Shown here: piece by piece, positions 32,405 through 44,564 of the stretch
Layout: each line of letters begins with the position of its first letter
Position numbering within the stretch: the stretch's first letter is position 1
Origin: Streptomyces sp. NBC_00569
GTDB taxonomy: Bacteria; Actinomycetota; Actinomycetes; Streptomycetales; Streptomycetaceae
DNA length: 64,000 bases
Direction: 5' to 3'
Assembly: GCF_036345255.1 (NCBI RefSeq)
Contig: NZ_CP107783.1
Span: 8,611,001-8,675,000, forward strand
Translations under genes and position numbers: made by a program
Notes under the pieces: model-generated
What the model saw: the letters and a program-made list of their open reading frames with translations, nothing else
What the model was told of the DNA's origin: nothing
Database searches by the model: none

Positions 32405-32706
32405 TCAGCCGGGACGTTTCTGGTTCTCGATGTACTCCTTGACCACCTGTAGTGGGGCGCCCCCGGCGGAGGCGGCGAATTATGACGGTGACCAGAAGTG
32501 TTCGCCCCACAGGTGGCGGTGGATGAGCTCCGGGTACTCCTTGCGCAGCAGGCGGGCGGAGACGCCCTTGAGCGAGCCGACCATCCGGGACAGAGCGATC
32601 TGCGGGGGATAGTGCACGAGCAGGTGGACATGGTCCGCCTCGCCGTTGAATTCGGTCAGCTCGGCCCGGAAGTCGCCGCACACCTCGGCCGTGATGAGCG
32701 GGCACG
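32405..32706 (-). pseudogene. tnpA: tnpA (Y1 HUH transposase) remnant
   Basis: The 3' two thirds of an IS200/IS605 Y1 transposase. The HUH metal motif is intact in GEADHVHLLVHYPP, followed by RMVGSLKGVSARLLRKEYPE and GEHFWSPS. The next codon is TAA (complement of 32480-32482) where the family has TAC for Tyr. Reading through it restores FAASAGGAPLQVVKEYIENQ and the stop at 32405. The YIENQ holding the catalytic Tyr and metal-binding Gln thus lies behind the premature stop. The 5' part is also deleted. Confidence 0.85.
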
Positions 32707-33019
32707 GCTCAGGAAGCCCCAATGCGTCACGCTGCACTCCTGGTCCTTCCATCAGCTCGGCGCCTTCATCGCCTACAAGGCGAAAAGAGCCGGGGTCCCG
32801 CTGGTGCACGTCGATCCGGCGTACACCAGCCAGGAATGCTCCCAGTGTCATCACACCGACAGACGCAACCGGCCCTCGCAGGCCCGGTTCGCGTGCCAGG
32901 TCTGCGGCTTCGTTGAGCACGCGGATCTGAACTCGTCCCACAACATCGCCGCACGCGGCTGGTGGACGTGGGTTCGCGGGGCTGAGTCGCAGGCCCCTGC
33001 GCTCACCCTCATCGCGTGA
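32702..33019 (+). pseudogene. tnpB: tnpB C-terminal remnant (zinc finger and last RuvC part)
   Basis: Only the last 105 codons of a TnpB RNA-guided nuclease remain, starting around ARLRKPQ and HSWSFHQLGAFIAYKAKRAG. The four-Cys zinc finger is complete: CSQC and CQVC around residues of DRRNRPSQARFA. The final RuvC Asp is in HADLNSSHNIAARG. The RuvC I and II regions and the guide-binding lobe are missing, so it cannot be an active nuclease. The 3' end and right element end could still produce an omega-RNA-like transcript. Confidence 0.85.
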
Positions 33020-34001
33020 GCGCTGGATGCAGCCGGGCCTCATCATCGCCAGTGATGACCCGAGCAGCAAGCCCGGGCTTCAGCCTCGGGTAGTTGACCG
33101 GGTAGTCGTCACGGACACCGGGCGTCGCGCCCGCTCTGCCGAGGCCCACCGCGAGCACCCCACGCGCCAGATCGCCTCCCGAGTGGTGCCCGACGGCGAG
33201 CAGTTCGCGCAGAGCGGGTTCCAACGAGCCGTCCCCGCTCACTGCCCGCAGGAACGCGTGGGCCTGCGGCACGCATTCGCCGCGCACCGCGTGCCGCAGG
33301 AGTGCCGCCGAGAGCAGTGGTGTGCGCAGGGTCGCGTCCGCGACCGCCTCCGAGAGCGGTGCGAGAGGGCCTCCCCACGCTCGGCTCGCCAGCAGCGCGC
33401 CGCACAGGATGTCGTCACCGGACGGGGTGAGCCCCGGGCCGAGGCCGACCAGCGCGCGGGCGGCCCGCCGGACTTCGCCCGCGTCATCGGTGTGCAGGGC
33501 GTGGCGCAGGTCGGTCAGACGGGGCGCCAGCGGGGGCGGCAGGGGGTGCGCCGACGCGTCGAGCAGCGCCGCCACCCGCCCGAGGCGGGCGGGGTCCGGT
33601 GGGGAGGAGGCGTCCTGGACACGGGGCGGTGTCCAGGACGCCTCCGGTTCGAAGCGAACGGGCCCGATGACTACGCGGCCTGCCCCGAAGCCGGCCCGCG
33701 GTGTGTCGAGGTCCAACGGCCGGTCCGCCGACGAGAAGGGCAGCACGAGCGCGTTCGGCAGGAGGATCGCGTCCCGGGTCACCACGGCGAGCGCGGGCAA
33801 CTCCTGGTCTCCGGTGGCGAGATGGACCGCGTGGCGGGTGGCGGCGACGACGCGGGCCGGCCGGGGCGGACCGTGCAGCAGCGGGGCGACGGCCGTGCTG
33901 ATGGTGCCGAGGTGCGTGTGACGGACGGTGCCGAGGTGTACCTGCTCGGGGCGGGTCACCTCAGCCCGTGCGGATGCCCCGCCGGCCGCCGTGCCCGTCA
34001 T
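33009..34001 (-). CDS. DUF2877 protein, AllH-like oxamate carbamoyltransferase subunit
   Basis: 330 codons. The DUF2877 core is clear: ALVGLGPGLTPSGDDILCG (residues about 187-205) and GHHSGGDLARGVLAVGLG. The E. coli relative YlbF (AllH) forms oxamate carbamoyltransferase with FdrA (AllF) and YlbE (AllG). ATG 34001 overlaps the stop of the DUF1116 gene in an ATGA junction, so the subunits are translationally coupled. The last about 30 codons (from NYPRLKPG) read through the right end of the IS remnant, so the native C-terminus has been replaced by a short element-derived tail. The catalytic-type motifs lie upstream of this, so activity may survive. Confidence 0.85.
   Translation of the reverse strand: MTGTAAGGASARAEVTRPEQVHLGTVRHTHLGTISTAVAPLLHGPPRPARVVAATRHAVHLATGDQELPALAVVTRDAILLPNALVLPFSSADRPLDLDTPRAGFGAGRVVIGPVRFEPEASWTPPRVQDASSPPDPARLGRVAALLDASAHPLPPPLAPRLTDLRHALHTDDAGEVRRAARALVGLGPGLTPSGDDILCGALLASRAWGGPLAPLSEAVADATLRTPLLSAALLRHAVRGECVPQAHAFLRAVSGDGSLEPALRELLAVGHHSGGDLARGVLAVGLGRAGATPGVRDDYPVNYPRLKPGLAARVITGDDEARLHPALTR
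33072..33090. repeat. IS right-end hairpin
   Basis: CCCG-GGC-TTCA-GCC-T-CGGG, with the same loop and bulged T as the left-end hairpin, followed by TAGTTGAC, the likely element tip. Confidence 0.7.
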
Positions 34002-35431
34002 TCCCCGGGCTCCGGGGGCACGTCGAAGGCGCTCAGCGCGTCCGTGAAGCAGCGCATCGGGGCGTGGGTGAGGCCGGCGCCGATCTGGCCGATGCCCGGT
34101 TCGCGGTGGGCGATGCCCGTGGTGATGACCGGTTCGAGGCCCGTGTCGACGACCTTGCGGATGTCGAGGCCGACGGGGCTGCCGACGAAGTCGAGGCCGG
34201 GGAGGCGGTAGTCGCGGTGTCGGCCGACGGTGAGCGTCGCCATCTCCTGGCTGACGCGACGGGCCCCCTCGGGGGTGCCGCCCACGAAGCCGACGATCGC
34301 CGGCGCGGCGGCCAGCGCGAATCCGCCCAGGCCGTGCATCTCGGTGATGGCGCTGTCACCGATGTCCGGGTTGGCGTCGGCGGGCCCGTATCCGGCGAAG
34401 TAGAGGCCGTCCACGGGGGCGGCGGGTGCCGTGAACCAGGCGTCGCCGAGGCCGCTGACGCGGATGCCGACATCGACCCCGTTGCGCGCGAAGGCGGTGA
34501 CGACCGTGGAGTGCGGCACGCCGTGCCCGGCCAGCAGCGCCAACTTGCTCGCGGCCATCGAGAAGTTGAGGAACCAGTAGTTGTTGTCGCGCAGGAAGTC
34601 CAGCGCCTCGATCCCGCCGAGTTCCGCGTGCCGGGCGAGCGCGGCGGAGAGCTCGCGGGTGAGCAGGGCGCTCGCGGCGGTGTTGCGGCTGTGGCACTCG
34701 TCGCCCATCTGAAGGGCCTGTGCGGTGACCGACCGCAGGTTGACCGGCTCGGCCAGCGAGCCGATCGCCGCCCGCAGCGCGGGGCCGAGGCGCTCTCCCA
34801 TCCAGCGCAGCCGCTTCATCACGTCGTCGCCGAGCGCGCCGTAGCGCAGGCAGCGGCCCTGCCCCTCGTTGAGGTTGGAGTAGGCCCGCAGTCCCGTGGC
34901 CTCGTCCTCCACGACGAGCAGGGGCATGGACGCGGAGATGACGCCCGCCATCGGGCCGACGGCGTCGTGGTGATGGCAGGGGGCGAAGCGGATGGCTCCC
35001 GTGTCGGCGAGTGCTTCCGCGTCCGGTGCCGTCGTGGCCCAGCCCTCCAGGAGCGCGGCGCCGACGACGGCGGCCCGCATCGGGCCGCACATGCGCTGCC
35101 ACTCGATCGGCGGTCCGGCGTGCAACAGGAGCTTCTCCTGGGCCAGTTCAGGGATGAGTTCCCCGGCCGGGCGGACGTCGGTCCACTGTGGCACGACGCC
35201 GAGTATCCGCTCGAGTGCTTCGGCGTTGGCCGCCTCGACGGCCGGGTGCGCGACCAGGCGGGCGAGCCTGCCGCCGAGTTCCGGATCACCGTGGGCCGGG
35301 GGTCGCCAGTCGACCGCCGTCACCGTCGCCCCCGCGGACCGCGGCGGCCCGGCGAACGCGTCGACACCGACGTTCACGACGTGCGGTACGCCGGTCAGGA
35401 GGCCCTGCGCGGGCGCGGCCTGTGCGGTCAT
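33998..35431 (-). CDS. DUF1116 protein, AllG-like oxamate carbamoyltransferase subunit
   Basis: 477-residue DUF1116 protein, the family of E. coli YlbE (AllG) and YahG. Conserved stretches include APCHHHDAVGPMAGVISASM (residues about 150-169), GQGRCLRYGALGDDVMKRL, GDECHSRNTAASALL and NNYWFLNFSMAASKLAL. In the E. coli complex this is probably the main catalytic subunit. ATG 35431 overlaps the FdrA stop (ATGA) and its own stop overlaps the DUF2877 start, so three subunits form one coupled operon. Assignment as a carbamoyltransferase comes from gene order and homology; the acceptor substrate is unknown. Confidence 0.88.
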   Translation of the reverse strand: MTAQAAPAQGLLTGVPHVVNVGVDAFAGPPRSAGATVTAVDWRPPAHGDPELGGRLARLVAHPAVEAANAEALERILGVVPQWTDVRPAGELIPELAQEKLLLHAGPPIEWQRMCGPMRAAVVGAALLEGWATTAPDAEALADTGAIRFAPCHHHDAVGPMAGVISASMPLLVVEDEATGLRAYSNLNEGQGRCLRYGALGDDVMKRLRWMGERLGPALRAAIGSLAEPVNLRSVTAQALQMGDECHSRNTAASALLTRELSAALARHAELGGIEALDFLRDNNYWFLNFSMAASKLALLAGHGVPHSTVVTAFARNGVDVGIRVSGLGDAWFTAPAAPVDGLYFAGYGPADANPDIGDSAITEMHGLGGFALAAAPAIVGFVGGTPEGARRVSQEMATLTVGRHRDYRLPGLDFVGSPVGLDIRKVVDTGLEPVITTGIAHREPGIGQIGAGLTHAPMRCFTDALSAFDVPPEPGE

Positions 35432-37005
35432 GCGGTCTCTCCGATCCGGGAGGATGAGGCGGCGGCGGAGCCGGGGGCGGCGGATGCGAGAGTCAAGTCG
35501 CCATCGATGGAGAGGAGTTCGGCGCACACCCGTGCGGCGCTCGTGCTGCTGTCGACGACGTACGCACCCGCGTCCCGCAGAATCCGCTGCTGTGCGGTGA
35601 GCCCCTGCGGGTCGTCGTCGGTGCCCACGACGAACGCGATCACCGGCGGGGAGTCGTCAGGAGCCTCGGCCAGGGCCTCGGCGAGAGCCGCTGCCGGATC
35701 AGGCGCCGCGCCGTGTCCGATGACCACGTCGAGGACGACCGCGGCGCTCCGTGGGTCCGCGAGTGCTGCTCGCAGATACGCCGTGCGCACCGTGGGGTCG
35801 ATCATCGGGTGGGGGCGCCCGGCGGTGAACTCGTCGTCGCCCAGGTCGAGTACGAGATGCCGGTCCGGCAGACGTGGGGCGGCGCCCGGCACCGGCGGGG
35901 GAGCGGTGCGGGTGATGTCACCGAGCGCCGGGCCGAGCAGCAGGGCCGCCTCATGGGCGAACGTGCCTCCCGCGTACAGGGCCCGCAGCAGGCGGCGCGG
36001 CGGAGCGGGGGCGGGCAGCTTGGGCAGCTCCTCCCCCGGCGGCAGCGCTCCGCCGACGGCAAGGGAAGCCGCGGACCGCGCTGCCTCCGAGAGAGTGGGC
36101 GCGAGCGTCACGCCGGCCGGGGCGGGGGCGGTCCCGTCCGTGCCGAGGAAGCAGGCCACCACCGGTTTCCCCAACGCGCCCGCGTGCCGCAGCAGTTGCC
36201 CGGCCACGTGAGGCGCGGGCGGTTTGGACACGAGGACGATGACCTCCGTGGCGGGGTCCGCGGCCAGGGCGTCGAGCCCGGCCCGCATCGTCGGCCCGCC
36301 CACGTCCGCGCTCACGTCGCGGCTGCCCGTGCCGATCACATGGCTGACCCCCGAGCCCAGGGAGTGCAGCAGACTCGACACCTGTTGCAGTCCCGTACCG
36401 GAGGCCCCGACCAGGCCGACGCAGCCCGCCCGCACCTCGTTGGCGAAGCCGAGGGGGATGCCGCCGATGACGGCGGTACCGCAGTCCGGGCCCATGACGA
36501 GCAGCCCGCGGCGGGCGGCCTCGCGCTTCAGGAGCACCTCCTGCTCGATCGGCACGTGATCGCTGAAGACGAAGGCGTGCATGCCCAGGCGCAGCGCCTT
36601 GAGCGCCTCGGCGGCCGCGTACGGTCCGGGGGTGGAGATCAGCGCGAGGCTCGCGCCGGCGGGGGCGCCGGCGAGCGAGCGCACCGGGGGCCCGGCGTCC
36701 GCACCGGCCTCCGGTCCTGCGCCCGGTCCCTCGCCGGGACCGGACAGGGCATCGATCACCAGGGCGAGGGCGGTGTCCACCGCGTCGGGTTCGCCGCGGA
36801 CGGCGACGAGCAGGTCGTTGGGTCCGGCGTCGTGGCCCGGGCTGGTCAGCAGCCCCGACCGCGCGAGGACGTCGCGGTTGGCGGGTGTGCCCATCACGAG
36901 GCTGATGGTTTCGACGCCCGGCGGTTCGGCCAGGCGGGCGGCGACCCTCATGAGGGCGACGGAGTCGGCGTAGAGATCCTTGTGCACGGCGTTTCGCAGC
37001 ACCAT
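35428..37005 (-). CDS. fdrA: FdrA-family acyl-CoA synthetase-like subunit (AllF-like)
   Basis: 525-residue protein with the succinyl-CoA-synthetase-like layout of FdrA. The N-terminus MVLRNAVHKDLYADSVALM is typical. CoA-ligase-type elements are FSDHVPIEQEVLLKREA, MGPDCGTAVIGGIPLGFAN and VGASGTGLQQVSSLLHS (residues about 165-240), followed by GTGSRDVSADVGG. In E. coli, FdrA (AllF) acts with AllG and AllH to transfer a carbamoyl group to phosphate. It lies 133 bases after PucR on the same strand and is coupled to the next gene. Confidence 0.9.
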   Translation of the reverse strand: MVLRNAVHKDLYADSVALMRVAARLAEPPGVETISLVMGTPANRDVLARSGLLTSPGHDAGPNDLLVAVRGEPDAVDTALALVIDALSGPGEGPGAGPEAGADAGPPVRSLAGAPAGASLALISTPGPYAAAEALKALRLGMHAFVFSDHVPIEQEVLLKREAARRGLLVMGPDCGTAVIGGIPLGFANEVRAGCVGLVGASGTGLQQVSSLLHSLGSGVSHVIGTGSRDVSADVGGPTMRAGLDALAADPATEVIVLVSKPPAPHVAGQLLRHAGALGKPVVACFLGTDGTAPAPAGVTLAPTLSEAARSAASLAVGGALPPGEELPKLPAPAPPRRLLRALYAGGTFAHEAALLLGPALGDITRTAPPPVPGAAPRLPDRHLVLDLGDDEFTAGRPHPMIDPTVRTAYLRAALADPRSAAVVLDVVIGHGAAPDPAAALAEALAEAPDDSPPVIAFVVGTDDDPQGLTAQQRILRDAGAYVVDSSTSAARVCAELLSIDGDLTLASAAPGSAAASSSRIGETA

Positions 37006-37138
37006 GGCTCCGACTCTAGGCAGCGGCCCGCCCCTCGCAGCATGGCTCGAAGTGCCAGAACCGGACGGGGAATTACCGGCAACGGGTGACAGTGACCCGC
37101 CTTCGCGGGGGTCGGCGTCAGCCGTGCGGAGGGCACGC

Positions 37139-38755
37139 TCAGCGCCGGTCGCGCGCGGAGAGCAACCGGTGGGCGTGGACGGCCAGTTCGGTCTGGAGTC
37201 GGGCTGTCGGCCGGCGTTCGAGACCGCCGGTGAGGCGGTCGATCTGGCGCAGTCGATAGCGCAGGGTGTTGTAGTGGACGTGCAGCCGCGCGGCGGTGGC
37301 CACGCCGTTGCGGTCGTGGAGGAGGTAGACGCCGAGGGTCTCGACGAGGCTGCCCTCGTGCTCGGCGTCATGGGCGAGCAGCGGGCCGAGCGCGTCGTCG
37401 ACGAGGGCCGCGAGCTCCGTCGCGGGCAGCTGGCCGAGGAGCCGGTACACCCCCAGGTCCGCATGGCCGCGGACGAAGTCTGGGCCGTGCAGTTCGCGGC
37501 CGAGCGTCAGGGTCTGAGCCGCTTCCTCGTAGCTGTGGTGGTAGTCGGTGAAGTCGTCCCGGACGGTTCCGGCGGCGACCGCCACGTCCCAGTCGGGGTG
37601 TGCGGCGGTGACAGCCGCGTGCAGGGCCTGACATCGGCCGTTGAGGGACGGCCCCGGTTCCATCAGCAGGACGAGTCCGCTCTGACTGCCCCAGATGATC
37701 GCGCCGGGCCCGGCCGCCGACCGCACAAGGGGCAACAGCCGCTCCTCCAGAGCGAGTTCGGTGTCGGTGGGGCCGCCGGTGCCGGTGGAGGCGACCTCGA
37801 CGAGGACGACCGCACGGGGCAGGCGCAGGTTCCAGCCCATGGCCGCCGCGCGGCGCGCGGTCTCGGCGCGGTCGCGCGGCGGCCGTGAGACCAGTTCCAT
37901 CAGGAGCAGCGTGCGGTAGCGCTGCTGGCGGCTGGCCAGGGCGCGTTCCTGGGCGGCGATGGTGGCCGCGACGGTCGTGGCGTGCTCGAGCGCCATCCGT
38001 TGATGAGTGTCGAGCTCATGAGGGGAAGGCGAGGCAGCCCCGGCCTCGTGATCCGCGGCCGGGGCGTCGTCCCGCCACAGGGCCACGGCGCCGCTCGCGC
38101 CGGTGCCCGTCTCGATGGCGCGCTCGGCGGCGGGCGGGACGTCGGAGGGCGGGGAGCCCGCGGAGGCCAGGATCCACCCGTGCTCGTCGAGCACGGCGGC
38201 CGCGCAACCGGACAGTTCGAGGAGTACGTTCATGAGCTCCTGGTAGGAGCCTCCGTCGAGGGCCACCGCCGTGAGCCGTTCATGGATGGCGCGCGAACGC
38301 TCCAACTCCAGGGCCTGACGGTTCAGTACGGTGCCCAGCACCTCGGACAGGATGTCGTTGAACATGACGGCACCCGGCAACTCGACGACGGGGAAGCCGA
38401 GTTCGTCCGCCACCGCCAGCATCACCGGCGGCAACGCGGGCAGATAGGGACCGACCTTCACGGCCAGGGCGGCGAGGCCGCGCTCGGCGAGTACGGGGAT
38501 CAGGTCGCTCAGCGCCTCGGCGTCGTCACGGACGGCGTAGGCGGTGGTCAGCAGCAGTTCGCCGCCGCGCATCCAGCGCACGATGTCGGGAACTTCCATG
38601 ATGTTGACGACGCGGATACGGCGGCCGCGGCCGCGGGCCCCGGCGACGAGTCGTGCGCCGCTGAGGCAGGGCAGGGCCAGTGCCTCGCTCACGGTCAGCC
38701 CGGGGGAGAGGCCGTAGGGGACGGTCGGGGCGGTACCGATACCGATGCCTGTCAT
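37139..38755 (-). CDS. PucR-family transcriptional regulator
   Basis: 538-residue regulator of the purine/nitrogen catabolism type. An N-terminal PucR domain (SGARLVAGARGRGRRIRVVN then EVPDIVRWMRGGELLLTTAY, residues about 32-73) is followed by a central GGDEF-like region. The C-terminal HTH_30 reads TLGVYLLHDRNGVATAARLH and VHYNTLRYRLRQIDRLTG. PucR activates allantoin/purine genes in Bacillus. Its position at the junction of the two divergent arms, next to fdrA and carbamate kinase, makes it the probable activator of the whole cluster. A repeated CGCG-N-GTAAC lies just upstream. Confidence 0.9.
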   Translation of the reverse strand: MTGIGIGTAPTVPYGLSPGLTVSEALALPCLSGARLVAGARGRGRRIRVVNIMEVPDIVRWMRGGELLLTTAYAVRDDAEALSDLIPVLAERGLAALAVKVGPYLPALPPVMLAVADELGFPVVELPGAVMFNDILSEVLGTVLNRQALELERSRAIHERLTAVALDGGSYQELMNVLLELSGCAAAVLDEHGWILASAGSPPSDVPPAAERAIETGTGASGAVALWRDDAPAADHEAGAASPSPHELDTHQRMALEHATTVAATIAAQERALASRQQRYRTLLLMELVSRPPRDRAETARRAAAMGWNLRLPRAVVLVEVASTGTGGPTDTELALEERLLPLVRSAAGPGAIIWGSQSGLVLLMEPGPSLNGRCQALHAAVTAAHPDWDVAVAAGTVRDDFTDYHHSYEEAAQTLTLGRELHGPDFVRGHADLGVYRLLGQLPATELAALVDDALGPLLAHDAEHEGSLVETLGVYLLHDRNGVATAARLHVHYNTLRYRLRQIDRLTGGLERRPTARLQTELAVHAHRLLSARDRR

Positions 38756-38776
38756 GCACAGTCACTATGCGACAGC

Positions 38777-38807
38777 CGCGAGTAACCTGTAATACCCCGC
38801 GCGTAAC
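38777..38807. promoter_or_regulatory. Direct repeat CGCG(A/C)GTAAC, period 21: PucR site candidate
   Basis: CGCGAGTAAC (38777-38786) and CGCGCGTAAC (38798-38807) differ at one position and lie two helical turns apart in the divergent promoter region between pucR and the carbamate kinase gene. Confidence 0.45.
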
Positions 38808-38917
38808 TTCCATGTTTCCCTCTGTGGTTGGGGACGCCCCTTGTCAGCGGGTGTCAACGGCGGACGGCTCATCCTGGCGTCCGGTGCCCATGACCGGCTC
38901 GGCACGCCTCTCTTACG

Positions 38918-39958
38918 GTGACCCGCATGACTCCCCGAGCCGTGCCGAGGACAGCGGTGGTCGCCATCGGCGGCAACGCGCTGCTGCGCGGTGGCACCCA
39001 CGCCACCGTCGCCGAACAGGTCGAGGCCGCGCGCCGGCTCGCGTCGCCCGTGGTGACGCTGGCCGACACGGGGTGGCGGGTCGTGGTCACCCACGGCAAC
39101 GGCCCCCAGGTCGGATTCATCAAGCGCCGCGCGGATCTCGCGGCAGCCCTGGCCCCCGAACTGCCCGCCCTCGGCCTCGACATGTGCGTGGCCGGCTCTC
39201 AGGGCGGCCTCGGATACATCCTGGCGACCGCGATCGCGAGCCGCCTCAGGTCGCTCGGGCGCGCCGACGACCGGGTCGCCGCCCTGATCACCCACACCGT
39301 GGTGGACGCGCACGACGAGGCGTTCAGCCACCCGACCAAACCCATCGGAGCCTTCTATCCGGCAGCCAGAGCACGGGAGTTGGCGGATCTTCACGACTGG
39401 ACAGTGGCGGAGGAGGGCGAGCGGGGCTGGCGCCGCGTGGTCCCGTCGCCCCGGCCGCGCCGGGTCCTCGAGACGCAGTCCGTACGGGCACTGTCCTCGG
39501 CAGGATTCACGGTGATCGCGGCCGGTGGCGGTGGGATCCCTCTCGTGGAAGGCGACGACGGTGGCTACCAGGGCGTCGAAGCCGTCATCGACAAGGATCT
39601 GACCTCGGCGCATCTCGCGGCGGAACTCGGCGCGGACCTGCTGGTCATCACCACCGCTGTCGAACGCGTAGCCGTCGACTACGGCCGGCCCACGCAGCGC
39701 TTCCTGGACCGGCTGACCTGCGCCGAGGCCGAACGGCTCCTGGCCCAGGGCCAGTTCCCGCCGGGCAGCATGGGCCCCAAGATCAGTGCCGCCCTCGACT
39801 TCCTGCGCGGCGCCCCCGGCCGCCAGGTGCTCATCACCTCACCGCAGCAGCTGGGCGCCGCCCTCGACGGACACGGCGGCACCTGGCTCGACAGCGACCC
39901 GGCGCGGACCACCGAAGAACCCCTCAACGGCACCGTCACGGCAGGGAGGCCGCAGTGA
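38918..39958 (+). CDS. arcC: Carbamate kinase (ArcC/AllK family)
   Basis: 346 residues (from GTG 38918; ATG 38927 is equally possible). It makes ATP from carbamoyl phosphate and ADP. Family motifs are AIGGNALL (residues about 17-24), THGNGPQVGFIKRRAD, AGSQGGLGY, the DKDLTSAHLA nucleotide loop, and FPPGSMGPKISAAL. In E. coli AllK follows the AllFGH genes in the same pathway. Here it heads the opposite arm of the divergent cluster, and its stop overlaps the next start (GTGA). It shows that the pathway ends in carbamoyl phosphate. Confidence 0.92.
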   Translation: MTRMTPRAVPRTAVVAIGGNALLRGGTHATVAEQVEAARRLASPVVTLADTGWRVVVTHGNGPQVGFIKRRADLAAALAPELPALGLDMCVAGSQGGLGYILATAIASRLRSLGRADDRVAALITHTVVDAHDEAFSHPTKPIGAFYPAARARELADLHDWTVAEEGERGWRRVVPSPRPRRVLETQSVRALSSAGFTVIAAGGGGIPLVEGDDGGYQGVEAVIDKDLTSAHLAAELGADLLVITTAVERVAVDYGRPTQRFLDRLTCAEAERLLAQGQFPPGSMGPKISAALDFLRGAPGRQVLITSPQQLGAALDGHGGTWLDSDPARTTEEPLNGTVTAGRPQ

Positions 39959-41019
39959 TTCTCGAAGCGGGACAAGGCCCGATCGACGGCACGCACTATC
40001 TGCGAGCCACACCGGAGACCGTCGGCTGGGGGCGGCTGCCGTGCCGCACCACGGCGCCGGCGCTCACGATCGACTCCGGCGACAGCGTCACCTTCGACAC
40101 CGTCTCGCACGAGGGCATCCTGGAGGACCAGGGGCGCGACCCGGCGGCCTTCTTCGGGCGGTACGGCATCGCCGCGACCGAAGTGCTCTCCGACGCACGC
40201 CTGCTGGCGAAGTCCCCGCCGCCACGGGACCCGGACGAGGACGGCCCCCATGTCGTCAGCGCGCCCGTCCACATCAGGGGCGCCGAGCCGGGTGACCTCC
40301 TCAAGGCCGAAGTGCTGTCCCTGCACCGGCGTGCCGACTACGGCGTCATCTCCAGCAGGCACGGCCGTGGCGCCCTGCCGGGCGAATTCGCCCGCACGGC
40401 ACCGGAGTTCACCCTCTGCGAGGTGGAGCGCGCCGACGGCCGGGACGTCGGCGTGATCCGCTACGCCGAGGGCCGGGCGGCCCGGTTCCCGCTGCGGCCC
40501 TTCATGGGCATCATGGGCGTGGCCACCGACACGGACGGATCGCAGCACTCGGTGCCGCCGGGACGGCACGGCGGCAACCTGGACATCAAGGAACTCGAGA
40601 CGCGCTCCGCGCTGTATCTGCCCGTACAGGCGGCCGGGGCGGGCTTCTACACCGGAGATCCGCACTACGCCCAGGGCAACGGCGAAGTCGCCCTCACCGC
40701 CCTGGAGGCGCCGCTGCGCGCCACGTTCCGGCTCACCCTCCTCAAGGGCGCACGGGCCCGCGCGGCGGCCGCGACCCTCACGCACCCCTTCGGCGAGACC
40801 GACCGGCACTGGATCCCCGTGGGGCTGCACGAGGACCTGGACGAGGCGATGCGGGAAGCGGTCCGCGCCGCCGTCCGCTTCCTCACGGACCGCTTCGGCA
40901 TGGACGGGCCGTCCGCGTACGCCTACCTGAGCGCGGCGGCGGACTTCGAGATCTCGCAGGTCGTCGACCAGGTCCAGGGAGTGCACTGCCTCATCCGCAA
41001 GGCGGACTTCCCTGACTGA
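39955..41019 (+). CDS. Acetamidase/formamidase-family amidase
   Basis: 354-residue member of the FmdA/AmdA family, which releases ammonia from small amides. Conserved elements are SGDSVTFDTVSHEG (residues about 40-53), ISSRHGRGALPGEF, FMGIMGVATD, RHGGNLDIKELETRSALYLP and GDPHYAQGNGEV, where His/Asp residues form the metal site. GTG 39955 overlaps the kinase stop, so the two are coupled. In this cluster it may remove the amide nitrogen of a pathway intermediate. Its real substrate is unknown. Confidence 0.9.
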   Translation: MILEAGQGPIDGTHYLRATPETVGWGRLPCRTTAPALTIDSGDSVTFDTVSHEGILEDQGRDPAAFFGRYGIAATEVLSDARLLAKSPPPRDPDEDGPHVVSAPVHIRGAEPGDLLKAEVLSLHRRADYGVISSRHGRGALPGEFARTAPEFTLCEVERADGRDVGVIRYAEGRAARFPLRPFMGIMGVATDTDGSQHSVPPGRHGGNLDIKELETRSALYLPVQAAGAGFYTGDPHYAQGNGEVALTALEAPLRATFRLTLLKGARARAAAATLTHPFGETDRHWIPVGLHEDLDEAMREAVRAAVRFLTDRFGMDGPSAYAYLSAAADFEISQVVDQVQGVHCLIRKADFPD

Positions 41020-41121
41020 TCCGGTCCGATCCAGCCCGATCGCGATCGCGGCTGACTCTGCCTGCCGCGTACGCCGGCCCCCCCGCATCCGCCCCCGCCC
41101 CTCCACTCACCGGGAGCTCGC

Positions 41122-42372
41122 ATGCCTCAACTGATACTGCGTCAAGCACGCGTCGAAGACGCCCGGTCGCTCAGCGACGTGGTGATCGACGGCGGCCGGG
41201 TGCGAGCCGTCGGGGACGCCTCGGGCCAGGACGCCGACGAGGTGATCGACTGCGCGGGCCGGGTCGTCCTGCCCGGCTTCGTCGAACCCCATCTGCATCT
41301 CGACAAGGCCCTTTTGGACGGCGTACGAAGCAACCCCGACGGCACCCTCGCCGGAGCGATCGCGGTCACCGGCGAACTGAAGAGCGCGTTCACGCACGAG
41401 GACGTACTGGCTCGTGCGCGGCGCGTCCTGGAGGCGGCGGTCCTCAACGGCACGACGGTGATCCGCGCCCATCCGGACGTGGACCCGATCGCCGGGCTGC
41501 TCGGCGTCGAGGTCCTGCTCCGACTCCGCGCGGAGTACGCGGGCATGGTGGACCTCCAGATCGTGGCGTTCCCGCAGGAGGGGATCCTGCGGTCGCCCGG
41601 CACCGAGAAGCTGCTGATCGCGGCACTGGCGGCGGGCGCCGACGTGGTGGGCGGCTGCACCTACAACGAGGCCACCCTGGACGACTGCCGCCGCCACGTC
41701 GAGCTCGTGCTCGACCTCGCCGCCCAGCACGGGGTGCCGGCCGATCTGCACGCGGACTTCGCCGACGACGCGTCCGACCCCCGGTACGCGCTCGCCGAGT
41801 TCATCGCCGGCCAGACCGCGCGCCGGGGCCTGGGCGGCCGGGTGGCGCTCGGCCATATGACCTCACTCGGCGGCCGGGAGCCCGCGGACCGGGCGCGGGC
41901 GATGGCGGCCCTCGCCGACGCGGGCGTCGCCGTCGTGCCGCTCCCGGCGACCGACCTGCACCTCGGCGGGCGACGGGACACCCGGGCGGTCCGGCGGGGG
42001 GTCGCCCCGGTCCGCGAACTGTGGGACCACGGCGTGCTCGCCGCCTGCTCCTCCAACAACATCCGCAACGCCTTCACCCCGTTCGGACGCGCGGACCCCC
42101 TGGACACGGCGCTCCTGCTGGCGCAGACCGGCCATCTGTCCGGGTCCGACGACCTCCACCGGGTGCTGCGCATGGTCACGCACGACGCGGCCCGGGTCGT
42201 CGGCGTCGCCGACGACTACGGCGTACGGCCGGGCGCCCGCGCCGACCTGGTGGTGCTGGACACGCAGGTCTACGACGACATCGTCCTGGACCGGCCCGAA
42301 CGCGCCCATGTCGTCAAGGCGGGGAAGGTGGTGGCCCGCACGGTCAGGACCAGCGAACTCCTCGTCCACTGA
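41122..42372 (+). CDS. Cytosine deaminase-like amidohydrolase
   Basis: 416-residue TIM-barrel amidohydrolase of the CodA/AtzC group. The first metal motif is FVEPHLHLDKALL (residues about 53-65), then RAHPDVD, DLHADFADD and LGHMTS. Where CodA-like enzymes have the metal/catalytic Asp (SDNIRD pattern), this protein reads SSNNIRNAFTPFG, with Asn. A similar Asn form exists in some family members as far as I recall, so it is probably a subfamily trait rather than damage. A role in opening a cyclic ureide or pyrimidine-like ring, or in deamination, is inferred from the cluster. Confidence 0.88.
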   Translation: MPQLILRQARVEDARSLSDVVIDGGRVRAVGDASGQDADEVIDCAGRVVLPGFVEPHLHLDKALLDGVRSNPDGTLAGAIAVTGELKSAFTHEDVLARARRVLEAAVLNGTTVIRAHPDVDPIAGLLGVEVLLRLRAEYAGMVDLQIVAFPQEGILRSPGTEKLLIAALAAGADVVGGCTYNEATLDDCRRHVELVLDLAAQHGVPADLHADFADDASDPRYALAEFIAGQTARRGLGGRVALGHMTSLGGREPADRARAMAALADAGVAVVPLPATDLHLGGRRDTRAVRRGVAPVRELWDHGVLAACSSNNIRNAFTPFGRADPLDTALLLAQTGHLSGSDDLHRVLRMVTHDAARVVGVADDYGVRPGARADLVVLDTQVYDDIVLDRPERAHVVKAGKVVARTVRTSELLVH

Positions 42373-42462
42373 ACCTCCTTCTCCCCTCGCACCCCCATCA
42401 GCCCCCCACACGCCCCCGCACGGCACCGCGCTCTGCCATCCGACTCCAGCAGAGGAATCCCC

Positions 42463-43053
42463 ATGCGCGAACGCCTCTCTCACGAAATCGTTGCCTCCGT
42501 ACTCGCCGGACTGACGGCGTTCATCGGAGGGACCGCGCTCCATCTCCCGCCCTGGGCGATCTTCATCTCGTGGGCGGCCGTCTTCGCGCTCGGAGGGCCG
42601 AGCTGGGCGAACGCCCGCAGGCTGTGGTGCACGATGCCCGCCGGCTCCGCCTTCGCCCTGATCATCGTGCTGATCGACCAGCACGCGGGCACGGCCTTCG
42701 GCGACAGCCAGTTCGCCCGGAACGTGGTGCTCGCCCTGGTGATCATGGTCGTCAACACCGTCCTGATGTACACGGGCCGCATCAAGGCGTTCTCGCTGGT
42801 TCCCGGCATGTTCCTCGGCTTCGCCAGCTACTTCGCCACGTTCTTCGGCGGCTTCGGCTACAAGCCGGGCAACATCTGGGCGGCGTGGGTGTGCGTGGTC
42901 GCGATGAACGCGCTCGGGCCGGTCTTCGCCTATCTGTCCAACCGGCTCATGTACCCGGTCCTCTCGCCGGTGCCGACGTCGGTCGTGGCGTCCGCCGGCC
43001 CCGTGCACCACGACGGCCGCACACCGTCGGCCGGAAGCACACAGGCCGAGTGA
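42463..43053 (+). CDS. DUF1097-family membrane protein
   Basis: 196-residue inner-membrane protein with about five hydrophobic helices (residues about 9-155) of the DUF1097 type. FFGGFGYKPGNIWAAWVCVV and RNVVLALVIMVVNTVLMYTG are typical. A hydrophilic His/Ser tail follows. Last gene of the plus arm of the carbamoyl cluster. It may carry or sense the pathway substrate, but no transport activity has been assigned to this family. A 90-base gap separates it from the amidohydrolase gene. Confidence 0.82.
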   Translation: MRERLSHEIVASVLAGLTAFIGGTALHLPPWAIFISWAAVFALGGPSWANARRLWCTMPAGSAFALIIVLIDQHAGTAFGDSQFARNVVLALVIMVVNTVLMYTGRIKAFSLVPGMFLGFASYFATFFGGFGYKPGNIWAAWVCVVAMNALGPVFAYLSNRLMYPVLSPVPTSVVASAGPVHHDGRTPSAGSTQAE

Positions 43054-43062
43054 GGCCGTCCG

Positions 43063-43983
43063 TCACCTCCCGGGCAGCCGCTCCACCGCGAACGCCCTGC
43101 CCGGGTTGTGGACGAGGATCCGGTCCACCAGCGCTTCGCCCAGGGCCAGTTCGAGGCGAGGACGGACGCGGCGCAGCAGATACGGCATCCCGGGCCCACC
43201 GCTCACCGAGCGCGCTCCGGCGGTCGTCGTGTCGCCGCCGAGCAGAAGCCGGTCGCCGTACCCCGCGTCGGCGAGCGCCGCCATCGCGTCCGGCATCCGC
43301 CAGTCCGTCGCGTGATTGGCGCGCGACGGCCCGTCGAAGGCGAGGTACGCGCCGGACTCGGCGGCCTGCCGGTGCACGGCGAAGTCGGGGGAGCGGTTGA
43401 GGTGCCCGAGCACGACCCGCTCCGGCGCCACCCCCAACTCCCCGCACAGCAGGTCGAGTACGTCGAGTACACCTGTCCCCAGCTCGTGGTGGACGGCGAT
43501 CGGTGCGCCCGTCGCGTGATGGGCCTCGGCGGCGGCCCGCATCGTCCACACCGCGTGGCCGTCGAGGGCGTGGAAGCCGCCCGCGACCTTGATGAGGCCG
43601 GCCCGCACACCGCTGTCGCCGATCCCCTCGGTGAGTTCCCGCACGAACACGCCGGCGAGGACGGGGCGCAGCCGGGCGAGCAACTCCGGCGGGTAGTGGG
43701 CGGCCTGGTGGAGTCCCGTCGCGGCCACGATGCGTACGCCCGTCGTGGTCGACAGTCCGGGCAGCAGCTCGGCCCGGCGTCCGAGCCCGTGCGGTGTCCA
43801 CTGGACGACCGCGCCGCCGCCCGCATCCCGGTAGGCGCGCAGTTCCGCCTCGGCGGCGGCCGTGTCGTCGAGTTCCTGGCCGGGGAGCAGAGAGCTGCGG
43901 AAGAAGAGGTGGTCGTGCGCGTCGCACACGCCGAGTTCCTCCGGAGGCACGTCCCCGAGCACGGTCCGAACGGTCGCGGTCAC
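43063..43983 (-). CDS. Phosphotriesterase-family (PHP) metallohydrolase
   Basis: 306-residue amidohydrolase-superfamily protein of the phosphotriesterase group. The binuclear metal ligands can be assigned: DAHDHLFF (HxH), Lys in LIKVAGG, HHELGTG, VLGHLNRSPD and the Asp of GGDTTT. Many members are lactonases rather than phosphotriesterases. GTG 43983 overlaps the DUF4865 stop (GTGA), so the two are coupled. The stop lies 9 bases from that of the convergent DUF1097 gene. Confidence 0.88.
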   Translation of the reverse strand: MTATVRTVLGDVPPEELGVCDAHDHLFFRSSLLPGQELDDTAAAEAELRAYRDAGGGAVVQWTPHGLGRRAELLPGLSTTTGVRIVAATGLHQAAHYPPELLARLRPVLAGVFVRELTEGIGDSGVRAGLIKVAGGFHALDGHAVWTMRAAAEAHHATGAPIAVHHELGTGVLDVLDLLCGELGVAPERVVLGHLNRSPDFAVHRQAAESGAYLAFDGPSRANHATDWRMPDAMAALADAGYGDRLLLGGDTTTAGARSVSGGPGMPYLLRRVRPRLELALGEALVDRILVHNPGRAFAVERLPGR

Positions 43984-44564
43984 CACTGCCTCCCCCGGGG
44001 GAGCCGGTCGCGCTCGGGGGCGCTCAGGTGCAGCACCTCGTAGAGATCGCCCGGCGTGTCGGGCGACGCGTGGTCCCAGAGGGAGAAGGTGAGCAGCTCC
44101 CAGTGGCGTGGGTCGACGGCGACGGCCGCGCACACCGCCCCGTCCTGCCCGGCGACGCGGGCCGCGTCGCGCACGGCGGCGTCCGTCAGGTCGGCGAGCG
44201 GAGCCTGTCCGGTGAGGGGTGTCCGGCGGCGTACCGCGCTCCTCGGGGTGGACTGTGAGGCCGGGCCCTCCACGTACGCGAGTCCGGCCCAGTGCTGCAC
44301 CTCGGGCCGCCCGAAGTCGTCCACGATCCCCTGGAATCCGGGCCCCCACAGGAACGAGTTCATGCCCTGAGGGGTGTTCCACAGGTAGCACGGCGCGTAC
44401 TGGTTCACGGGTGACCCGGCGACACCGCGCTCCCGCATCAGATAGGCCTTGAGGCCGAGTCCGGGGAAGGCGTCGAGGAGGTGCCCCCTGTCCTCCACCC
44501 GCTTGCGGATGATGCCCATGTCGTAGTCGGCGGGCAGCGTGATCTCGTACTGCATCGCGTGCAC
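43980..44564 (-). CDS. DUF4865-family protein
   Basis: 194-residue protein of the DUF4865 family. The N-terminus MQYEITLPADYDMGIIRKRV and the block YAPCYLWNTPQGMNSFLWGP, then GFQGIVDDFGRP (residues about 59-90) are characteristic. The alpha+beta layout resembles monooxygenase-like ABM folds, but no cofactor site is evident. GTG 44564 follows GAGGAG. It lies between a TetR gene and the phosphotriesterase gene, all on one strand, which suggests a small inducible detoxification operon (inference). Confidence 0.82.
   Translation of the reverse strand: MHAMQYEITLPADYDMGIIRKRVEDRGHLLDAFPGLGLKAYLMRERGVAGSPVNQYAPCYLWNTPQGMNSFLWGPGFQGIVDDFGRPEVQHWAGLAYVEGPASQSTPRSAVRRRTPLTGQAPLADLTDAAVRDAARVAGQDGAVCAAVAVDPRHWELLTFSLWDHASPDTPGDLYEVLHLSAPERDRLPRGRQW

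Follow-up and report, generated by a model that had tools for sequence, protein, structure and literature searches.

The window, that is the whole 64-kb stretch of DNA analysed here (positions 8,611,001-8,675,000 of the single-contig 10.3-Mb genome of Streptomyces sp. NBC_00569), contains a divergent cluster of eight genes. These encode the oxamate carbamoyltransferase subunits AllF, AllG and AllH, a PucR-family regulator, a carbamate kinase, an acetamidase/formamidase (FmdA)-family protein, a CodA/AtzC-like amidohydrolase and a DUF1097 membrane protein. We propose that the cluster is probably a PucR-controlled catabolic unit that converts oxalurate, a compound of purine waste, to oxalate and yields ATP. 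AllFGH would split oxalurate with Pi into oxamate and carbamoyl phosphate, and the carbamate kinase would convert carbamoyl phosphate to ATP, CO2 and ammonia. The FmdA-family protein would hydrolyse oxamate to oxalate and NH3, a new role, equivalent to that of Klebsiella HpxW. The amidohydrolase would generate oxalurate by acting on a cyclic compound, with parabanic acid as the simplest choice, and the DUF1097 protein would move a substrate or product across the membrane. The direct basis of this scheme is formed by gene identities, conservation, partner swaps and active-site changes, from which we infer every reaction; its weakest parts are the first step, assigned to the amidohydrolase, and the transport role. 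The cluster had been noticed earlier from its sequence alone, as a possible undescribed pathway yielding carbamoyl phosphate. The strongest reading is instead that the known oxalurate pathway occurs here in a variant form, in which two enzymes receive new assignments, and not an unrelated carbamoyl-phosphate pathway; the variant would add an oxamate amidohydrolase.

The carbamoyltransferase and its conservation

AllF (35428..37005, minus strand, ATG at 37005), AllG (33998..35431, minus strand, ATG at 35431) and AllH (33009..34001, minus strand) are encoded together, as in the oxamic transcarbamylase of Escherichia coli, and share 41% identity with FdrA (over 509 aa), 49% with YlbE (over 459 aa) and 35% with YlbF (over 131 aa), respectively. 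Each exceeds its family cut-off (NF004760, 440.5 bits, cut-off 433; PF06545, 287.5 bits, cut-off 27; PF11392, 78.7 bits, cut-off 25), and AllG is similar to a solved structure (PDB code: 3clq). The linked carbamate kinase (ArcC/AllK-like; 38918..39958, plus strand) is of the catabolic type (PRK12352, 340 bits, cut-off 266), scores under the arcC equivalog cut-off (313 vs 358), and has carbamate kinases as its best solved-structure matches (E 9e-70). That carbamoyl phosphate feeds the kinase is the natural reading, as the sequence-only reading had also supposed. To judge by the titles of two studies (Vander Wauven 1986; Tigier and Grisolia 1965), the oxalurate pathway of Streptococcus/Enterococcus faecalis reportedly combines an oxamate transcarbamylase with a carbamate kinase, as the window does.

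The accessible text of PMC11326118 describes the purification of E. coli AllFGH as an oxamic transcarbamylase, together with its kinetics for carbamoyl phosphate and oxamate as substrates; the presumed reaction of the complex in the cell is the cleavage of oxalurate, which leaves oxamate as a dead-end product. The E. coli operon adjoins allE, allC and allD. The window resembles E. coli allFGHK, as given in the same text, in that homologues of AllF, AllG, AllH and the kinase are linked. Unlike it, the window has no linked allC, allD, allE or allantoinase, and adds an FmdA-family amidase, an amidohydrolase with Asn at a metal position, DUF1097 and PucR, in an actinomycete host. The most likely identity for the AllFGH of the window is a standard oxamate carbamoyltransferase with oxalurate as its substrate, because the AllFGH partners exchange with HpxZY-type and HpxW-type genes of oxalurate and oxamate breakdown, as set out in the next section.

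Few members of the genus have AllG (9 of 199 genomes). Among the best 80 of 228 AllG relatives from a scan of genome contigs, all eight proteins were matched in eight loci (L025-L031, L034), all from Streptomyces, with AllG identity down to 70%; the gene set is thus conserved outside the strain, as the sequence-only reading required, and it recurs more than by chance. Several of the eight proteins are broken into pieces in L031, another cluster (L033) is cut off by a contig end, and partial sets occur in Amycolatopsis jejuensis (L032) and Pseudonocardia acaciae (L035). In an AllG tree these loci form one branch of 13 rows (support 100). This tree and the FmdA tree below were made by a quick method with SH-aLRT support only; the AllG tree was built without L004, L009, L011, L015 and L026, and two pairs of loci (L010 and L026; L009 and L031) each come from one contig, judging by its length.

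Some AllG copies lie outside this pattern. The genome of NBC_00569 itself carries a second, distant AllFGH locus (L003, C1:691000-710900). Besides AllH (L003:6437-7375), this locus encodes a carbamate kinase-like protein, a PRK05985-type amidohydrolase and two permeases of the NCS1 type, and its AllG stands on a long branch apart from the others in the tree. One Streptomyces genome (G059) retains only an interrupted AllG copy (L011:9427-10653; 82% identity, with a stop within the aligned stretch), and the other cluster proteins found no match in its 20-kb stretch. The AllG of L049, on a contig labelled as a Klebsiella pneumoniae metagenome-assembled genome, groups with one from a betaproteobacterium (support 100), so the contig may have been binned wrongly.

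Exchange of partners

The partners of AllFGH were compared in 121 AllG loci, which are stretches fetched around part of all the AllG matches found (minus L001, L002 and L004), many of them ending at contig ends. Open reading frames were called by a simple GC-based script and some gene ends are wrong. FmdA is missing from 109 of these loci, and two of the 109 (L032, L090) have a GGT-family gene. In the Amycolatopsis locus L032, whose AllG belongs to the same clade as that of the window, the GGT-family gene directly follows AllH. Directly upstream of AllF (L032:5725-8337) lie AllB-like (185 bits) and AllC-like (154 bits) genes, missed by the script and found by tblastn, which tie this AllG clade to purine breakdown; with AllFGH, the GGT-family gene, PucR and ArcC following them, the locus is possibly an allantoin-to-oxalate cluster without AllD. 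The alphaproteobacterial locus L090 has AllG, AllH, an amidohydrolase of the Asn type and, beside it, a GGT-family protein; its AllG groups with that of E. coli (support 97 in the quick tree). The best structure match of the L090 GGT-family protein is 5HFT (339 + 268 bits for two chains; the next is 2nlz, 248), which the PDB list names only as gamma-glutamyltranspeptidase and which we take to be Klebsiella HpxW. No close FmdA was found elsewhere in the L032 and L090 genomes (best 31-38%, partial). Conversely, genomes G247 and G907 contain an Asn-type amidohydrolase (63-64%, SSNNIRNAF), FmdA (47-49%) and an HpxZY-type amidase within about 8 kb; neither has AllG, nor AllF above cut-off, and a stretch of this type (L211) also encodes an NMT1-type binding protein. 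Around one amidohydrolase, AllFGH and the HpxZY-type amidase thus seem to replace each other, as do FmdA and the GGT-family protein; the compounds common to the swapped partners would be oxalurate and oxamate.

The FmdA-family protein (39955..41019, plus strand) passes PF03069 (101.4 bits, cut-off 27) and fails the NCBIfam formamidase equivalog (70 vs 500 bits). As a PF03069 member it is outside the GGT family, and what it would share with HpxW is a predicted role. FmdA was matched in 85 of 394 genomes, from which 32 actinobacterial loci were hand-picked among the better-scoring rows, not drawn at random. A PRK08310-related amidase of the HpxZ-HpxY type (above 200 bits) lies near FmdA in 17 of the 32, and in 14 of these 17 it shares the strand of FmdA and is no more than 800 bases away; in the 121 AllG loci no such amidase reaches 200 bits (best 122). 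Uricase, HIUase or OHCU decarboxylase genes are present in 11 of the 32 loci and an allantoinase-like gene (above 200 bits) in 10. The 12 AllFGH-linked FmdA sequences form one group (support 88) inside the wider clade. Because the clade is linked to HpxZY-type amidases and uricase operons, where Klebsiella uses HpxW, the protein of the window seems to occupy the HpxW slot and is a predicted oxamate amidohydrolase. The hpxWXYZ branch of Klebsiella has the same predicted route from oxalurate through oxamate to oxalate; unlike it, the window has the phosphorolytic AllFGH in place of HpxYZ and the FmdA family in place of the GGT-family HpxW. The oxamate step of Klebsiella is assigned to HpxW in the accessible part of PMC5270733, and HpxY is called an oxalurate amidohydrolase in the text and an oxamate carbamoyltransferase in a figure legend in that of PMC12625717.

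The neighbours of a second FmdA branch (L123, L133, L150, L154) include an amidase of the HpxZY type and an isochorismatase hydrolase resembling BiuH/RutB.

Several findings weigh against the proposed oxalurate route. The GGT-family exchange rests on the two loci named above, and the L032 protein is almost equally close to two structures (2nlz, 348 bits; 5HFT, 210 + 161 bits); L090 has no AllF nearby, its AllF copies being on other contigs. The Pseudonocardia acaciae stretch (L035) encodes AllFGH, ArcC, the amidohydrolase and DUF1097 with neither FmdA nor GGT, and the Amycolatopsis locus has no local amidohydrolase, so neither partner is obligatory. Genome G103 has seven of the eight genes in rearranged order (L012) without AllH in that locus, although its second AllFGH locus (L008) does carry AllH. 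The HpxZY label comes from family models, not from comparison with Klebsiella HpxY: in three of the four amidases examined the N-terminus matches HpxZ ('oxalurate catabolism protein') below cut-off (59-82 vs 135 bits), and in the fourth there is just an AtzH-like match, likewise under its cut-off (20.6 vs 27). Moreover, 15 of the 32 FmdA loci have no HpxZY-type amidase and one FmdA branch lies beside a hydantoinase A-type gene (common to six of eight loci and identified in L126), so the family may have several substrates. Finally, no oxalyl-CoA decarboxylase was found above cut-off in the host (best 250 vs 739), and oxalate degradation by this enzyme was rejected.

The amidohydrolase and the membrane protein

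The amidohydrolase (41122..42372, plus strand; PF07969, 120 bits) gave a structural model with pLDDT 93, and its closest folds and sequences are cytosine deaminase and AtzC. The three His metal ligands of CodA, Gln156 and the second-shell His246 are kept. Glu217 of CodA is replaced by Phe and the metal-binding Asp313 by Asn in 15 of 15 window-type rows (12 genomes), all of which carry the signature [ST]NN[IVL]RNAFTP[FY]G; the L090 amidohydrolase likewise has Asn at the metal position. The 'CodA-like' label of the sequence-only reading therefore holds for the fold and fails for the catalytic residues, and cytosine deaminase was rejected as the function because Glu217 and Asp313 are replaced. 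Matched through CodA rather than by direct AtzC alignment, equivalents of AtzC Lys65 (the Lys of HLDK) and Asn304 (the second Asn of SSNN) are present, and those of Asp303 and His219 are absent, being Asn and Phe (the latter with an Asp one position before it), respectively. These four AtzC residues are taken from the accessible part of PMC4577212, in which (Table 2) the D303N variant remains active, so Asn at the metal site does not imply a dead enzyme. In sum, the protein is like CodA and AtzC as described there in fold, three His ligands and Gln, with an AtzC-like Lys and Asn, and unlike them in its metal Asn and in the absence of CodA Glu217 and AtzC His219.

The amidohydrolase may produce oxalurate from a cyclic compound, for example parabanate. 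Parabanate is an oxidation product of urate and guanine and the simplest cyclic precursor of oxalurate, and the title of the 1965 study reports that parabanic acid induces the transferase; a literature search on parabanic acid, oxaluric acid and amidohydrolase together found nothing. In its full version, this idea makes the Asn-type amidohydrolase a hydrolase of parabanate (imidazolidinetrione) and FmdA a second, unrelated kind of oxamate amidohydrolase, so that parabanate would be turned into oxalate with ATP saved in an aerobe, as Streptomyces is. We hold it tentatively, as something less likely true than false; to our knowledge, such a parabanate hydrolase would be the first one tied to a gene.

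The DUF1097 protein (42463..43053, plus strand) has six predicted membrane helices and is possibly an organic-anion carrier or channel. Foldseek found nothing at E <= 0.001 that matched its low-confidence model; ALMT anion channels headed the VIA list. In the related cluster L034 an NCS1-type permease lies between PucR and AllF. The model likeness and this permease suggest transport, no more.

Alternative substrates and pathways

An ordinary allantoin pathway could end in the cluster: allantoinase and allantoicase would lead to ureidoglycolate, an unidentified dehydrogenase would produce oxalurate and the cluster would finish the route. Both enzymes are indeed encoded together on the same chromosome (2.798-2.800 Mb; allantoinase 630 bits, cut-off 358), the regulator is of the PucR type, and the Amycolatopsis locus, in which AllB-like and AllC-like genes precede AllF, fits as well. 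But no gene of the AllD family (PF02615) was found in the host genome (0 matches) by a search that did find such genes in E. coli, B. subtilis, C. glutamicum and M. jannaschii, four of the 14 control genomes, the amidohydrolase would be left without a role, and AllG is rare in the genus. Within the 64-kb window, tblastn with E. coli AllC, AllD and AllE gave no match, and AllB matched only the amidohydrolase itself (42 bits); the linked AllB, AllC, AllD and AllE of an E. coli-type allantoin fermentation operon are thus not found here. The local absence of allantoin-specific genes that the sequence-only reading had remarked on is borne out. Its own counter-case, a plain carbamoyltransferase fed by allantoin genes elsewhere on the chromosome, is only partly set aside, with allantoinase and allantoicase present and no AllD-family gene, as an unrelated dehydrogenase could bridge the gap. 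The searches of the host genome for allantoinase, allantoicase and the AllD family leave the allantoin-operon reading weakened, and we consider an allantoin end unlikely.

The sequence-only reading had favoured a pyrimidine- or triazine-like substrate, or another cyclic ureide. One such route, in which AllFGH would act on an oxalurate analogue such as ureidomalonate (from opening of the barbiturate ring), giving carbamoyl phosphate and malonamate for hydrolysis by FmdA, draws on the N-carbamoyl amide group that ureidomalonate and oxalurate have in common and on the ring-opening enzyme AtzD/TrzD (cyanuric acid hydrolase/barbiturase family, PF09663), encoded in 17 of the 121 AllG loci (L020, L022-L024, L051, L068, L072, L092, L094, L097, L165, L167, L169, L170, L172-L174), some of them with a related amidohydrolase. 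These loci come from the phylum of the window, Rokubacteria, Bacillota, Proteobacteria and Myxococcota, and the closest solved structure of the L092 AtzD is a cyanuric acid amidohydrolase; the association points to a second AllFGH pathway at the AtzD loci, with pyrimidine- or triazine-like rings as its substrates. The window-type stretches fetched have no AtzD gene, however, the amidohydrolases neighbouring AtzD (L024, L092, L097) keep the metal Asp where the window type has Asn, and the window-type partners swap with HpxZY- and HpxW-type genes. The pyrimidine or triazine idea therefore fits the AtzD-bearing loci better than the window, for which we regard ureidomalonate as decidedly improbable; a search of the literature for ureidomalonate with carbamoyl phosphate found nothing. 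Very improbable is a route that starts from a hydantoin or some other cyclic ureide, on which FmdA as well as the amidohydrolase would act upstream, with AllFGH acting on some N-carbamoyl product: the hydantoinase A-type gene beside one FmdA branch speaks for it, as do two loci (L123, L132) with FmdA and ordinary CodA-like amidohydrolases and no AllG, but it leaves unexplained the GGT-family genes and the pairing, within uricase operons, of FmdA and the HpxZY-type amidase. A cyclic ureide may nonetheless be what the amidohydrolase of the window opens or converts upstream of AllFGH.

Like the nitrifier allFGHK genes beside biuret/triuret genes (PMC12625717), the cluster has no upstream purine genes; the nitrifier partners are biuH, trtA, atzF and others, and the accessible part of that paper mentions no FmdA family or Asn-type amidohydrolase. 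Our literature search, with subscription papers mostly outside its scope, found no such pathway in Streptomyces, in line with the novelty claimed from the sequence, and no AllFGH with FmdA-family, HpxZ or AtzD partners.

Gene organization and surroundings

All eight proteins exceed the Pfam cut-offs of their stated families, and the genes, strands and ATGA overlaps (AllF/AllG and AllG/AllH) are as first described. The coordinates give a four-base overlap of the ArcC and FmdA-family genes as well, and the genes of PucR (37139..38755, minus strand; PF07905, PF13556 and PF17853, each over cut-off) and AllF do not overlap. The true ArcC start is likelier the ATG at 38927 than position 38918, because that ATG is kept in the aligned relatives, except in L028, whose stretch ends before it. 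Alignment of seven Streptomyces regions (the window and six relatives) over the divergent intergenic region (38756..38926) revealed conserved blocks, CACTATGCG and GCGT(A/T)ACTTCC, kept in seven of seven; they are likely promoters and a regulator site, the latter of which we infer.

Directly after the cluster lie phosphotriesterase-family and DUF4865 genes (43063-44564, minus strand), which adjoin the cluster in the closest relatives alone (L025 and the single genome of L010 and L026) and are therefore not core. At the left edge (32480-33070) there are partial matches to an IS200-type transposase and a TnpB-type C-terminal (TNB) domain on opposite strands. No RNA elements were found in the window at the gathering threshold, nor tandem repeats at 32-44 kb.

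Implications

The oxalurate route proposed here offers testable functions for two so far unassigned protein clades, that of oxamate amidohydrolase for a PF03069 clade and one for a CodA/AtzC-like clade whose metal site has an unusual Asn. If true, it would close the oxamate dead end of E. coli, and it would mean that an energy-saving transcarbamylase and a hydrolytic HpxZY-type amidase are interchangeable modules of one pathway.

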